49,453 nucleotides of DNA from Natronorubrum halalkaliphilum (GTDB lineage Archaea > Halobacteriota > Halobacteria > Halobacteriales > Natrialbaceae), in the NCBI RefSeq assembly GCF_009834785.1, contig NZ_WUYX01000051.1, forward strand, positions 230-49,682. Reading direction: 5' to 3'. The notes under the pieces were generated by a model that was not told the DNA's origin, did no database searches, and saw only the letters and a program-made list of their open reading frames with translations. The position numbers and the translations under genes were made by a program. Shown piece by piece: positions 309-31,428 of this stretch (positions are counted from its first letter, which is position 1; each line of letters starts with the position of its first letter).

Positions 309-581
309 TTAGTCGATGTATTGTTGTTCCCACTCTCGGCGCTGTTCGATTTGCTCGAGCCCGCGGTCACTAATCGCGTAATAGTTCGTCCGCCGGTCGA
401 GTTGCCCTTTCTCGACGAGCTCTTTGTTGACGAGCGTGTCGAGGTTCGGATATAATCGCCCGTGGTTGATTTCACTGTTGTAGTACTTCTCGACTTCGTC
501 TTTTACTTCCTGGCCAGACGGCTGGTCAGCTCCCGCGATCACGTACAGCAGATCGCGTTGAAATCCGGTCAGATCGTCCAT
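309..581 (-). CDS. PadR-family transcriptional regulator
   Basis: A 90-residue winged-helix DNA-binding protein of the PadR type. The N-terminus reads MDDLTGFQRDLLYVIAG, followed by the usual PadR pattern of a helix, 'GRLYPNLDTLV' (recognition helix) and a wing ending in 'RTNYYAISDRG'. Haloarchaeal PadR proteins of this size are stand-alone DNA-binding domains without the long C-terminal dimer helix. I chose the ATG at 581 because it begins at the conserved domain; an in-frame GTG at 605 would add eight residues unlike the family. No operon partner is adjacent, so its target is unknown. Confidence 0.85.
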   Translation of the reverse strand: MDDLTGFQRDLLYVIAGADQPSGQEVKDEVEKYYNSEINHGRLYPNLDTLVNKELVEKGQLDRRTNYYAISDRGLEQIEQRREWEQQYID

Positions 582-934
582 TTTGCTACCACATCGACAC
601 ACCAACTGATCGACTATTTGTTATCGATTTCGTATCAACTGTTTCTCGGCTGTTTTGACGGGCTAACTGAAATAACTGAACTGACAATTATGTCCAGAAT
701 GAGTAAGAGGTGGCTACAGTTATGTGTGGTTGGTTCACTGCCTGACGAGAGATGGTGGCGATCGCTCGAAAATTGCGATCGCTTTTCCAACCAGATATGC
801 TACATACGGTTGTAAAACTGTTTGTACAGGGGTGAAGACTGGTGGTATGAACGCCGTCGCTATCGCTGTCGGAGTAGTGTGCTAAGAATGGGTATTCGAC
901 TGTGAAACCCGGTTACCGAACGTAAAAAGCCGTG
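582..934. other. Intergenic stretch with a palindromic hairpin
   Basis: No gene is supported. The region lies upstream of the padR gene and downstream of the cold-shock gene. Its only clear structure is the GCGATCGC hairpin at 758-782, described separately. Confidence 0.4.
758..786 (+). terminator. Hairpin followed by T-run
   Basis: Two copies of the self-complementary octamer GCGATCGC (758-765 and 775-782) are separated by nine AT-rich bases and followed by TTTT. They can form an 8-bp stem-loop. It may be a terminator, or a paired operator site, since each octamer is itself a palindrome. No gene reads rightward into it, so the terminator reading is weak. Confidence 0.3.
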
Positions 935-14996: not shown

Positions 14997-15070
14997 GGGC
15001 TCGTGGTCTAGCTGGTTATGACGCGGCCTTTACAAGGCCGAGGTCGGTGGTTCGAACCCGCCCGAGCCCA
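14997..15070 (+). tRNA. tRNA-Val (anticodon TAC)
   Basis: A 74-base cloverleaf. The acceptor stem pairs GGGCTCG with CGAGCCC with discriminator A. The anticodon arm CGGCC-TTTACAA-GGCCG carries TAC in its loop, and the T arm contains GGTTCGAACCC. No intron is present and CCA is not encoded. A TAAAGGTTATT element about 30 bases upstream fits a TATA box. It is followed by a repeat of its own 3' end (15167-15191). Confidence 0.97.
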
Positions 15071-15191
15071 CTATTGCTGGCGCGAACAAATTCGTGAGCG
15101 CCAGCACTGTGATGCGAGCGGTGGGTTCGAACGACGGAACGAGCGAACGGTAGTGAGCGAAGTTCAGGTGGTTCGAACCCGCTCGAGCCCA
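15071..15191 (+). repeat. tRNA-Val-trailing palindromic element
   Basis: Directly after the tRNA comes a perfect 8-bp hairpin, GCTGGCGC (15076-15083) and GCGCCAGC (15098-15105), with loop GAACAAATTCGTGA. Then comes an inverted T-arm-like segment (GCGAGCGGTGGGTTCGAAC), a second hairpin motif containing GCGAACGGTAGTGAGCG, and finally a near-perfect direct copy of the tRNA 3' end (15167-15191, 24 of 25 bases). The same order is seen after tRNA-Phe and tRNA-His. Confidence 0.8.
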
Positions 15192-15245
15192 TCGATCTGC
15201 GTTCCCATAGACGTCACTCGAGCCGCTCGCAAACTCGATCGAGGA

Positions 15246-20462: not shown

Positions 20463-20654
20463 AACACGATGTTACTCGCCAGACCGGAAAAGGGTGTCTT
20501 GAATATCCGAAAATCCAACAGACTGGCGTCAATGACTGGTAAACAAATCGTATTCTCGTCGTTACTTTTCGATGTGTTGGCCTAATCGGAACAACACCGG
20601 TCATATCCCGTGCCGAGGTGGACCGCTCGAACGGCGACTCCGATTCGAAATCCT

Positions 20655-20662
20655 TTTTTATA
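20655..20662 (+). promoter_or_regulatory. TATA box of tRNA-Phe
   Basis: TTTTTATA is centred about 26 bases before the first base of the tRNA-Phe gene, the usual distance for an archaeal TBP site driving a tRNA. Confidence 0.7.
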
Positions 20663-20684
20663 CGATGGACGGAGATAGAACTGC

Positions 20685-20758
20685 GCCGCCTTAGCTCAGA
20701 CTGGGAGAGCACTCGACTGAAGATCGAGCTGTCCCCGGTTCAAATCCGGGAGGCGGCA
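20685..20758 (+). tRNA. tRNA-Phe (anticodon GAA)
   Basis: A 74-base cloverleaf. The acceptor GCCGCCT pairs with AGGCGGC plus discriminator A. The anticodon arm CTCGA-CTGAAGA-TCGAG carries GAA, and the T arm is CCCGG-TTCAAAT-CCGGG. There is no intron and no encoded CCA. It is followed by about 420 bases of repeats derived from its own 3' half. Confidence 0.97.
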
Positions 20759-20898
20759 TACTTCTGCGGCGAGCAAATTCGCGAGCCGCAGGTATGCATC
20801 CCGAGCGGATTTGAACCAGACGAGTCGCAGCCCGGGAAGCGAACGCAGTGAGCGGCCCGGAACGTCTCGGCGAGGTTCAAACCCGGGAAGGCGGCATG
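20751..20898 (+). repeat. tRNA-Phe-trailing element, repeat unit 1
   Basis: A 148-bp unit starting inside the tRNA acceptor stem. It contains hairpin CTGCGGC/GCCGCAG with loop GAGCAAATTCGCGA, an inverted T-arm (GAGCGGATTTGAACC), a nested hairpin AGACG..CCGGG..GCGAACGCAGTGAGCG..CCCGG..CGTCT, and a direct T-arm plus acceptor copy ending GGCGGCATG. It is nearly identical to unit 2 at 21033-21179. Confidence 0.88.
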
Positions 20899-20930
20899 GC
20901 TTTTTCACGCGATATAGACTCGAGAAGTTA

Positions 20931-21040
20931 CTGGACCCGACTGAAGATCGGGCTGTCCCCGTTCCCGCGAGCGCAGCAAGCGGGAAGTCGAAAGACGAGC
21001 GAAAGCGAGTCTTTCGGAAGTTCAAATCGGGGAGGCGGCA
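20931..21040 (+). pseudogene. tRNA-Phe pseudogene split by two hairpins
   Basis: A partial tRNA-Phe copy. The anticodon arm CCCGA-CTGAAGA-TCGGG (20936-20952) keeps the GAA anticodon with a compensated base pair relative to the real gene (CTCGA/TCGAG). The T stem is also still paired (CCCCG/CGGGG). Between T stem and T loop lie two perfect hairpins, TTCCCGC/GCGGGAA and CGAAAGAC/GTCTTTCG. The D arm and 5' acceptor strand are not recognisable. Confidence 0.7.
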
Positions 21041-21179
21041 TACTTCTGCGGCGAGCAAATTCGTGAGCCGCAGGTATGCATCCCGAGCGGATTTGAACCA
21101 GACGAGTCGCAGCCCGGGAAGCGAACGCAGTGAGCGACCCGGAACGTCTCGGCGAGGTTCAAATCCGGGAGGCGGCATG
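21033..21179 (+). repeat. tRNA-Phe-trailing element, repeat unit 2
   Basis: A second copy of the unit at 20751-20898, with only a handful of differences (for example GCGTGA for GCGCGA in the loop region and GACCCGG for GGCCCGG). It starts at the acceptor end of the tRNA pseudogene and ends with another T-arm/acceptor copy, AGGTTCAAATCCGGGAGGCGGCA. Confidence 0.88.
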
Positions 21180-21332
21180 TTTCTAATCCGTGAGCGTAGC
21201 GAGCAGGTGCAGAAACTGAGGACCGATTCCGAATCCTATCAGTTGCGCACAGCGAAGCCGAGTATGCCGTCAGAACCCGACCTGTCCTCCAGATACCCAC
21301 CAGCGTCACGAACCCACCGATAGCGGAGTCGA

Positions 21333-27305: not shown

Positions 27306-28439
27306 TCAGTGGCCTCGGTTGCCGGCGACGAACTCCTCGGCCGTTCGCTCACCCGCGACGAATTCGACCGCTCGAGCGTCGATAGCGTCGGGTTCGAGGA
27401 CGTCGTGACCGACGAGCAGCCGCTCGAGCGCTCCGTGCCACTGTTCGGAGTAAATCCGTTCGATCGCGCCGGCGTCGGCTTCGGCGTCCCGACCACAGTT
27501 GGTGGCGTAGGCGCCCGTCGGCGTCGCATCGACGGCCTCGATCAGCCGCCGCTGGAACGCCGACCAGTCGAAGCCGCTGCCCTCGTCGTACAGCGCGACG
27601 GTCACGCCGAAGGCCCGCGCCTGCCAGGGCGCCGTGAACGTCGGCTCCGCGTCGACGCCGAGCAGGTCCGCGAAGGCGCCGGCGGGATCGGTGACGCCGC
27701 CGTCGGCCGCCGACCCCGCATCCGCATCCGTGCCGCGGGCGTCGAGTCGCTCCACGCCGATCATCGCGTCGCGGGTCACGAGGGCCGCGAGTTCGTCCTC
27801 GTCGCTCCCCTCCGTCCCCTCGGGACGGTTCGGGAGGACCATATACCTGATCTCGGAGCTTGAATCCCAGACGTCGACGTCGAGTCCGTCGTCGAGTTCG
27901 AGCCCGAACTCCTCGAGGACGGCACGCGGCTCGCGGACCAGACGCGAGCGGTAGGCTGGCGTCTTGTACCACGTCGGCGGCAGACCGAGCAGCGACCACG
28001 GATAACACGAGCACAGCGTGCAGACGACGGCGTTGTGGACGTCGTCGGTGTTTTCCTTCACCTCGATGTGCTGGACGCCGACCTCGAAGTCGAACTCCTC
28101 GATCGCGGCGGTCGCGTCCTCGAGCAGCCGGTCTTTGAATTCGGGATCGGTCCAGGCCCGAGCGACGACGCGGGCCCCATTTTGGGGACCGATGTCCCGT
28201 TCGTAGGCGGCGATCGCCTCGTCGATGGCGTCCGTCGAGACGAGCCCCTTCTCGACGAGCAGCGACTGGATCGCTCGAACGCGGGGGCGGGGGTCCTCGT
28301 AGGTTCCGTCGTGGCTGTGGCCGTGGCCGTGGCCATCGTCGTGATCGTGATCGTGTTCGTCGCCGTGGCCGCTCTCCTGGTCTCCCCCACGGCTGTGCTC
28401 GCGCTCACGATCGGCTCCGCGTTCGTGATCGTCAGTCAT
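27306..28439 (-). CDS. nthA: Nitrile hydratase alpha subunit fused to activator domain
   Basis: A 377-residue fusion. Residues 1-45 are a His/Asp-rich head ('[17 protein letters not shown]'). Residues ~50-205 are the nitrile hydratase alpha subunit with metal claw V139-C-T-L-C-S-C145-Y; Thr141 marks the non-corrin cobalt type. Residues ~265-345 match the nitrile hydratase activator/accessory family ('[25 protein letters not shown]', '[13 protein letters not shown]'), normally a separate protein that loads cobalt. The enzyme hydrates nitriles to amides. Start and beta-subunit stop overlap by eight bases, giving a beta-alpha-activator order typical of cobalt enzymes. Confidence 0.88.
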
Positions 28440-29124
28440 CGGTCTCCTCCGCGGGGCGCAGGTACGGCTCCCAGAGATCCACGTGAATCGTATCGTCGGG
28501 GTGCTCGGCGTCGGCTCCCCACACCTCCTCGGCGTCGAAGGCGACGGTGTACAGCGGCTCGTCGCGTTCCTCCCCGCGAGCGCTCGCGTCCGGGAAGACG
28601 TAGTTTCCGTGGACGTCTCGGATTTCGCCCGTCGTTCGCCGAACGTACCGTGGACAGCGCGTATGTCCCTCGGGATGGTCGTTGCGCACGCAAACGGCGT
28701 CTCCCTCGGCGAACTGCGGGTCGTCGTCCGGTCGATCGAACGAGGCCGGTTGCTCGAACACGTCCCTGACTCGGTCGGCGAGGTCTGGGTCCCGCCGTTC
28801 GGTGACGAACTCCGCTGGATTCTCGAGGTCGCGTGCGCGTCGATGGGCATCCTCGATCTCGTCCGCAGTGAGCTGACCCGTTTCGACGAGGTTCCGCTCG
28901 AGACTCGCCAGCCAGCGCTCGAAGTAGGTCGCCGCGAGGTAGTCCGCGGGCGCCATCCGTTCGATTCCGTATCGGCTCTCGTCGATATTGTAGATCTCTT
29001 GCGGACGGATCGCTCGGACCAGCGCGTAGACGACTCGTTCCCAGTCGGCGTGGAACTGGGCGTCGTCGTCGACGGGAACGGTCCCGAAGCCGTGCATCCC
29101 GCCCATATCGTGGATGCCGTTCAT
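28432..29124 (-). CDS. nthB: Nitrile hydratase beta subunit
   Basis: A 230-residue beta subunit of nitrile hydratase. The canonical start '[14 protein letters not shown]' identifies it and fixes the ATG at 29124; an in-frame GTG at 29142 would add six residues. Family features include 'DWERVVYAL', '[17 protein letters not shown]' and the SH3-like C-terminal barrel '[11 protein letters not shown]', '[16 protein letters not shown]', 'HGNYVFPD', '[13 protein letters not shown]', 'VDLWEPYL'. It forms a heterodimer with the alpha subunit encoded immediately downstream. Confidence 0.93.
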
Positions 29125-30902: not shown

Positions 30903-31111
30903 TGGCCGAGCCTACGGGTGGGCCGGTATTGGGTGTTATCGGTGACCGCATTTGCTCGAGTTCCACCGGTTGCTGTCGGATCGATCGACCAGAGGGTACT
31001 CGGTCTCAGCGCACGCTCTCGCCTGTGATCTCGCCGGCTACCCGCGGCCCGCGGATCCGGGTATTGCGGACAGTTCAGGCGGGGGAATTGAACCTGACTG
31101 CGAGAGTCTGA

Positions 31112-31191
31112 TACGGATTGCTGTAACTATGTACCGCCGATCACCAGGGACAGGGTCGGTGATCGGCGGTCATTGACTACAGTAAACCGTA
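31112..31191 (+). mobile_element. MITE, family 2 (80 bp)
   Basis: An 80-bp near-palindrome from TACGGATTGCTGTAACTA to GACTACAGTAAACCGTA, flanked by a perfect TGA duplication (31109-31111 and 31192-31194). The hairpin arms ACCGCCGATCACC and GGTGATCGGCGGT match the element at 18597-18675 in reverse orientation. Confidence 0.88.
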
Positions 31192-31200
31192 TGAGGACTG

Positions 31201-31355
31201 CCGTGGCGAACAACTCCGCGAGCCGCGGAATCGTCTGGGTGCGAGAATCGAACCAAAGCCAGACGGTCACCCTCACTTCGTTCGGGCGCTGCGACTGACA
31301 GGATTCGATTCTCTCCCGGGACTTTTCGCTCCTCACGTCCGTTCGTCGCGAAAAA
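31201..31355 (-). repeat. tRNA-His-trailing palindromic element
   Basis: Read from the tRNA on the minus strand: a hairpin of ACTTTTTCGC with GCGAAAAGT, an inverted T-arm copy (GAGAATCGAATCC), a second hairpin containing AGTCGCAGC and GAACGAAGTGAG, a direct copy of the tRNA 3' end (31233-31254), and a hairpin whose plus-strand form is CCGTGGC/GCCGCGG with loop GAACAACTCCGCGA (31201-31228). The order and loop sequences match the Val and Phe elements. Confidence 0.75.
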
Positions 31356-31428
31356 GTCCGGGTGCGAGAATCGAACCCGCGTCTCAGCCTCCACAAGGCT
31401 GAAGGATAACCACTACCCCAACCCGGAC
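31356..31428 (-). tRNA. tRNA-His (anticodon GTG)
   Basis: A 73-base gene on the minus strand. The anticodon arm is CAGCC-TTGTGGA-GGCTG with GTG. The acceptor GTCCGGGT pairs over eight positions with ACCCGGAC, consistent with a genome-encoded G(-1) opposite C73, the identity mark of tRNA-His. The T arm contains GGGTTCGATTCTC. CCA is not encoded. Confidence 0.96.

Follow-up and report, generated by a model that had tools for sequence, protein, structure and literature searches.

Tandem repeats with direct and inverted copies of the tRNA tail are anchored at tRNA genes across haloarchaea

The tRNA-Phe gene in the window (the whole stretch of 49,453 nt analysed, from Natronorubrum halalkaliphilum) is followed by a tandem array of hairpin-bearing units, each of which closes with a copy of the tRNA tail, the terminal ~21 nt that span T-loop and discriminator. 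These units belong to a tRNA-tail repeat family that is nearly universal in haloarchaea, and outside that order none was found in the genomes searched. The anatomy of the units, their tRNA specificity, strand polarity, unit-wise turnover and distribution are established by the observations given below. We propose that they are tRNA-anchored tandem repeats recombining between their tail copies, and that their sense strand is under selection for folding, most likely in the pre-tRNA trailer, as RNA; expression and function are inferred, and we hold this proposal to be evenly balanced between right and wrong. Integrase scars, neutral satellites born of template switching and decoy sites all remain as rivals.

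Anatomy of the units at three tRNA loci

From 5' to 3', a type A unit comprises a first hairpin (HP1), an inverted tRNA tail (I), a second hairpin (HP2) and a direct tail copy (D'), the tail of the tRNA itself being D (Table 1). HP1 is built of a stem, a tandem G.A, 2 bp and a loop. Type B units combine a remnant of the tRNA-Phe anticodon arm with two hairpins in the style of the A unit and a D'. The preliminary description had recognized two near-identical tRNA-derived units at this locus, 20751-20898 and 21033-21179. Both blocks are real, differing on alignment by 3 substitutions and 1 indel, and are returned by a repeat finder as a 151-nt pair with 97% identity, 282 nt apart. However, the array has three units, the middle one of type B (20897-21040) having gone undescribed, and the true period is the distance between successive tRNA tails (138, 144 and 137 nt), giving four tail copies (starts in Table 1). 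The features that had been read within the A units are all present in sequence and fold: a CTGCGGC/GCCGCAG hairpin around GAGCAAATTCG(C/T)GA; an inverted T-arm, CGGATTTGAACC, which complements the arm of the tRNA at 12/12 positions; a nested GCGAACGCAGTGAGCG hairpin; and a direct copy of the tRNA 3' end. Their derivation from the tRNA holds as well, and chance is excluded by the scores of the direct tail copies given below. At tRNA-Val and tRNA-His there is one A unit each, with the same layout as at the Phe locus.

Behind the tRNA-His array, at about 31109-31193, lies a MITE-like element of ~85-90 bp with the ends ATACGGTTTACTGTA / TTACAGCAATCCGTAT; near-copies occur behind tRNA arrays or tRNAs at loci L053, L061, L254, L018 and L024, and the element may prefer such sites. 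Elsewhere in the window, a 514-aa ORF (27306-28850, minus strand) has matches both to nitrile hydratase alpha (E 2.8e-83) and to the N-terminal domain of beta (E 2.9e-9), and is apparently a fused nitrile hydratase.

Table 1. Coordinates of the tRNA genes and units in the window (CM R1, covariance model R1)
Feature	Position	Strand	Evidence
tRNA-Val(TAC)	14997..15071	+	
Type A unit 3' of tRNA-Val	15072..15192	+	CM R1 52.5 bits at 15115-15186
HP1 of tRNA-Val unit	about 15076-15106	+	
I of tRNA-Val unit	about 15120-15132	+	
D' of tRNA-Val unit	about 15171-15192	+	
tRNA-Phe(GAA)	20685..20758	+	ARAGORN; Rfam RF00005, 65.5 bits
D, tail of tRNA-Phe (final 21 nt, T-loop to discriminator)	20738-20758	+	
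Unit 1, type A, 138 nt	20759..20896	+	unit extraction, fold; CM R1 67.2 bits at 20799-20890
HP1 of unit 1, CTGCGGC-GA-GC-AAATTC-GC-GA-GCCGCAG	20764..20791	+	sequence, fold, tandem GA enrichment
I of unit 1, inverted tRNA tail core CGGATTTGAACC	20806..20817	+	inverted repeat, 100% complementary to 20737-20748
HP2 cassette of unit 1, GCGAACGCAGTGAGCG core	20818..20874	+	fold, consensus, covariation
D' of unit 1, direct tRNA tail copy (one substitution, one inserted A)	20875..20896	+	
Unit 2, type B, 144 nt	20897..21040	+	repeat family; unit extraction; type also present in relatives
Anticodon-arm remnant of unit 2	20935-20961	+	
Hairpins of unit 2	20962-20986, 20989-21016	+	
Tail copy of unit 2	21020-21040	+	
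Unit 3, type A, 137 nt	21041..21177	+	fold; CM R1 75.4 bits at 21081-21172
HP1 of unit 3	21046-21073	+	
I of unit 3	21088-21099	+	
HP2 of unit 3	21100-21156	+	
D' of unit 3	21157-21177	+	
Likely truncated next unit at distal array end, hairpin GTTTCT...AGAAAC	21179..21216	+	sequence; truncated distal units common in relatives
Type A unit 3' of tRNA-His	31232..31354	-	CM R1 66.1 bits at 31238-31320
tRNA-His(GTG)	31355..31428	-	

tRNA specificity, turnover and distribution

Surveying 1 kb downstream of the tRNAs of the same genome, with a tail copy defined by a score of at least 28 and compared to 200 shuffles, we found a tRNA-specific tail copy at 16 of the 41 tRNAs scored, the scores being well above those of the shuffles. 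Among these 16, no other tRNA's tail matched as well as the tRNA's own or better, except at the two Lys tRNAs, which have a tail in common. Upstream of the 41 tRNAs there was no tail copy. The remaining 25 had no clear downstream copy (Gly(GCC), one of these, shows a weaker unit), and hence tRNA maturation does not depend on the units.

The anchoring holds across the fetched loci, where 155 of 159 modules sit directly 3' of a tRNA, with more than 25 anticodons covered, and 150 are oriented as the tRNA, the other 5 having the cassette inverted. Several modules that seemed to lack a tRNA by a plain tRNA scan actually follow an intron-bearing tRNA-Trp or insertion-bearing Lys and Glu tRNAs. Among unit-bearing tRNA genes, tRNA-Lys at L083 (minus strand) and tRNA-Glu at L156 have intron-like anticodon-loop insertions of 34 and 8 nt, respectively (ARAGORN). 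Further, 235 of 253 units have an I that matches their own tRNA's tail more closely than the tails of the other tRNAs. In the genus of genome G028, for instance, tRNA-Phe mostly has CGGGG rather than CCGGG and I shifts accordingly to CCGATTTGAGC; in G130, a member of this genus with CCGGG, I is GGATTCTGAACC. One and the same type of HP2 cassette, such as AGACCGAGGTTCTGCGAGC...GCAGGTTCTCGG, occurs behind Phe, Leu, Ser, Trp and other tRNAs, so that cassettes appear to move between loci, with the arms remaining tRNA-specific. We infer that the cassettes likely swap between tRNA loci via the common palindrome of the T-loop. At L089, L090, L114, L159 and L160 the HP2 cassette flanked by I and D' is inverted, an arrangement that recombination between the two inverted arms would produce.

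The preliminary description had suggested looking for precise variation in unit number among relatives. In 52 genomes of one and the same genus with a syntenic tRNA-Phe, many with conserved surroundings, the fetched Phe arrays read 0, A, B, AB, BA, ABA or BB and often end in a truncated unit; in Natribaculum (G024) the array is ABABA. Several of the 52 have empty sites, at which the tRNA directly joins the flank that elsewhere lies 3' of the last D' (matches 142-275 and 537-584 adjoining). Elsewhere, exact tandem duplicates starting at the tRNA also occur (111 nt x3, 122 nt x3 and 125 nt x2). The longest array read, behind tRNA-Gly(TCC) at L255, contains five or more tail copies, and three identical 111-nt units follow the tRNA directly. 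Whole units are thus gained and lost, and the pattern that would have refuted the original suggestion, namely gradual decay with neither unit-wise change nor covariation, is not what the loci show, even though the distal ends of the arrays are often truncated. Recombination or slippage between tail copies is the likely means by which arrays would lengthen and shorten. Across the 11 Val(TAC) loci, sampled only through a neighbouring Phe or by lying in the window, 10 keep a unit, with its stems replaced nonetheless.

Such turnover could also be that of a functionless satellite, in which template switching at the T-arm palindrome makes and homogenises the inverted copies and unequal exchange of tails multiplies them. 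The D-I-D' order is the outcome that two template switches would have, and the exact tandem duplicates, the ragged distal ends and the rare inverted HP2 cassettes (5/159) all fit. However, a satellite predicts neither the 150:5 bias in orientation, nor the retention of the Val unit by 10 of 11 sampled species, nor near-universal presence confined to a single order, and we regard it as unlikely.

The distribution was determined with covariance model R1, built from 37 I-HP2-D' modules of the genome's own and related loci. It matches 38 of 41 relatives and 283 of 293 genomes sampled from the haloarchaeal order (252 of 255 among those of good quality), named carriers including Haloarcula, Haloferax, Halorubrum, Natrinema, Natronomonas, Halobellus and Halorhabdus. 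None of 124 genomes from the rest of the phylum was matched by a search that recovered 23 of the 24 order members included. The hairpin motif CGARCGNAGYGAG by itself shows, in most genomes, no more than a modest genome-wide enrichment over the reversed control, and hence the loop alone is not specific. No halovirus was found with a unit; five pattern matches on viral contigs proved to be unrelated sequences without a tRNA, and the phage matches were essentially tRNA genes. Two plasmids are carriers, with the units 3' of a tRNA or broken tRNA in each. In a Natrinema thermotolerans plasmid (L071, 2900-3085) and on contig C16 of the genome under study (L069, about 520-700, minus strand), the broken genes, of tRNA-Glu and tRNA-Val, contain hairpin insertions and have intact units behind them (CM 70.3 and 67.6 bits). 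A sensor-kinase-like region, considered as a ranking marker for close relatives, was rejected as multicopy.

These data also bear on whether the units are integration scars or integrase-mobilised micro-elements, with HP1-I-HP2 inserted at the T-loop, the tRNA tail as attachment core leaving tails on both sides, and arrays representing serial integrations. The span of D is as expected for attachment cores at tRNA 3' ends, units come and go exactly, and the downstream tail copies match, as direct repeats of the tRNA 3' end, the duplications made by integrases at their attachment sites. Partial tRNA copies flank Haloquadratum elements, such as GI3, at a tRNA 3' end with a 43-nt tRNA-His repeat (PMC3119063). 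However, tRNA-integrated elements have several to 52 kb between the copies and usually an integrase gene, whereas the haloarchaeal units hold about 120 nt of hairpins, with tail copies usually about 90-190 nt apart, and no integrase domain was found in the ten neighbouring ORFs annotated around the three tRNAs. The location of about 98% of the modules directly 3' of a tRNA and the lack of a halovirus with a unit speak against it too, and a single sequence-specific integrase would not explain tRNA-matched tails as well as inverted tails at more than 25 anticodons. An integrative origin is hence improbable in our estimate, though it cannot be set aside.

Alternatively, the downstream tail copies might be decoys or spare attachment sites, absorbing tRNA-targeting elements so that the tRNA gene stays intact. 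Integration at tRNA genes normally restores the tRNA, and such protection is thus hardly needed; further, decoys do not require I, HP1, HP2 or an RNA-sense polarity, and no integrated element was seen within an array. Even granting the near-exact tail copies, and that haloarchaea have tRNA-targeting elements and integrase families of their own (PMC8371274), we give this idea very little credence.

Folding, strand polarity and the case for RNA

The covariation of I-HP2-D' is 0.416 versus 0.204 when shuffled, and that of HP1 across nine orthologous Val loci 0.386 versus 0.151; in both cases none of 500 shuffles reaches the observed value, which exceeds all slid controls. As these shuffles ignore relatedness, the slid controls and the replaced stems weigh more than the shuffle count. 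The original surmise, that change of stems with conservation of loops reflects selection on structure, is thereby supported. The conservation is narrower than first noted, residing in a sense-strand tandem G.A internal loop, often accompanied in HP2 by a GNA triloop. A 2x2 GA/GA internal loop is found in HP1 of 75 of 185 first units (0.8 in shuffles; at most 3 for any other dinucleotide), and in 134 of 245 HP2 interiors, usually with the GNA triloop.

This loop is polar: the tRNA-sense strand has GA/GA in 188 of 253 units versus 6 with its antisense image, TC/TC, and the strand with the polarity of the tRNA is the one that folds well. Since tRNA genes occur on both genome strands, the polarity tracks transcription rather than replication; it therefore points to RNA rather than replication-strand DNA, and is the main ground for the RNA reading. 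It is left unexplained by integration and is not predicted by a satellite. Selection acting on RNA is nevertheless a moderately supported inference, in the absence of expression data.

Other signals are mixed. In the I:D' arm G.U outnumbers A.C (167 vs 74), whereas the HP1 and HP2 stems have no such excess (94 vs 103), and we therefore rejected G.U excess as a general proof of RNA. When the full tRNA plus unit is folded with ViennaRNA, the 5' acceptor strand of the tRNA preferentially pairs with D', regardless of whether I is shuffled. The notion that I masks D' from the tRNA is accordingly unsupported (mispairing 0.80 to 0.82 upon shuffling I in 110 folded tRNA+unit transcripts); fully shuffled spacers give an equal mispairing bias, making this model a poor judge of masking. 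A role of D' as terminator was also rejected, as T runs 3' of D' are no longer than those 3' of the tRNA; many units are preceded by short T runs, at which transcription may end before reaching them. Thus, the points against an RNA trailer are the lack of expression data, the many tRNAs without units, the restriction of the G.U excess to I:D' and the want of folding support for a protective I.

Known analogues and implications

The rtT repeats of Escherichia coli are tandem repeats 3' of a tRNA gene, each with the tRNA 3' end. By layout those at tyrT are the nearest analogue, the haloarchaeal repeats likewise containing the 3' end of the preceding tRNA. However, the latter have an inverted tail copy and two hairpins, and occur at many tRNAs across an archaeal order; there is no sign of homology and membership in the rtT family is not met. 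In Rfam only the tRNA reaches the cut-off, with no RtT-like match at E up to 5 in 20600-21260. At tyrT an RtT RNA is freed from the tRNA transcript (Bosl and Kersten 1991, as cited in PMC4986893). Haloquadratum also has the palindrome-associated, IS605-related PATEs (PMC3119063). These too are short, palindromic and non-coding, but PATEs are mobile with palindromes near their ends, whereas our units have tRNA-matched arms and are locked to tRNA 3' ends; with 155 of 159 modules so placed, IS605-type PATE/MITE dispersal at unrelated sites is not met. In integrons, the attC site is an imperfect palindrome with a variable terminal hairpin in a direct-repeat array. The haloarchaeal units share this organization; unlike integrons, they are anchored at tRNAs without gene cassettes, and no recombinase was seen in the ten ORFs near the tRNAs. 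We found no description of the family in the literature on attachment sites, palindromes, tRNA trailers and tRNA-adjacent repeats of haloarchaea, subscription papers being outside our scope.

Returning to the RNA trailer, we offer the following mechanism. A read-through pre-tRNA would bear a two-hairpin trailer, an inference of moderate strength, and an RNase Z cut 3' of the tRNA would free it, much as rtT RNA is freed at tyrT in E. coli. I can pair with either D or D' but not with both at once, so that the trailer may, purely as a proposal, be a cis switch; it would act on 3'-end maturation of the tRNA, on termination or on the surveillance of transcripts that read through. In its most ambitious form, which we consider doubtful, the family would be a new order-wide class of archaeal cis-acting RNAs: tandem tRNA-specific 3' trailers acting as a three-strand switch, made of the tRNA tail, its inverted copy and the second tail, that decides the maturation of read-through pre-tRNAs, with a copy number at each tRNA that recombination can adjust.

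Nearly all sampled genomes of the order thus have a structured, tRNA-matched family that has apparently remained undescribed despite adjoining the best-annotated of genes. With hundreds of tRNA loci gaining and losing whole units, it presents a natural experiment in concerted evolution. It also cautions that partial tRNA copies in haloarchaea are not always integration scars and raises the testable question of how these organisms terminate and mature their tRNA transcripts.
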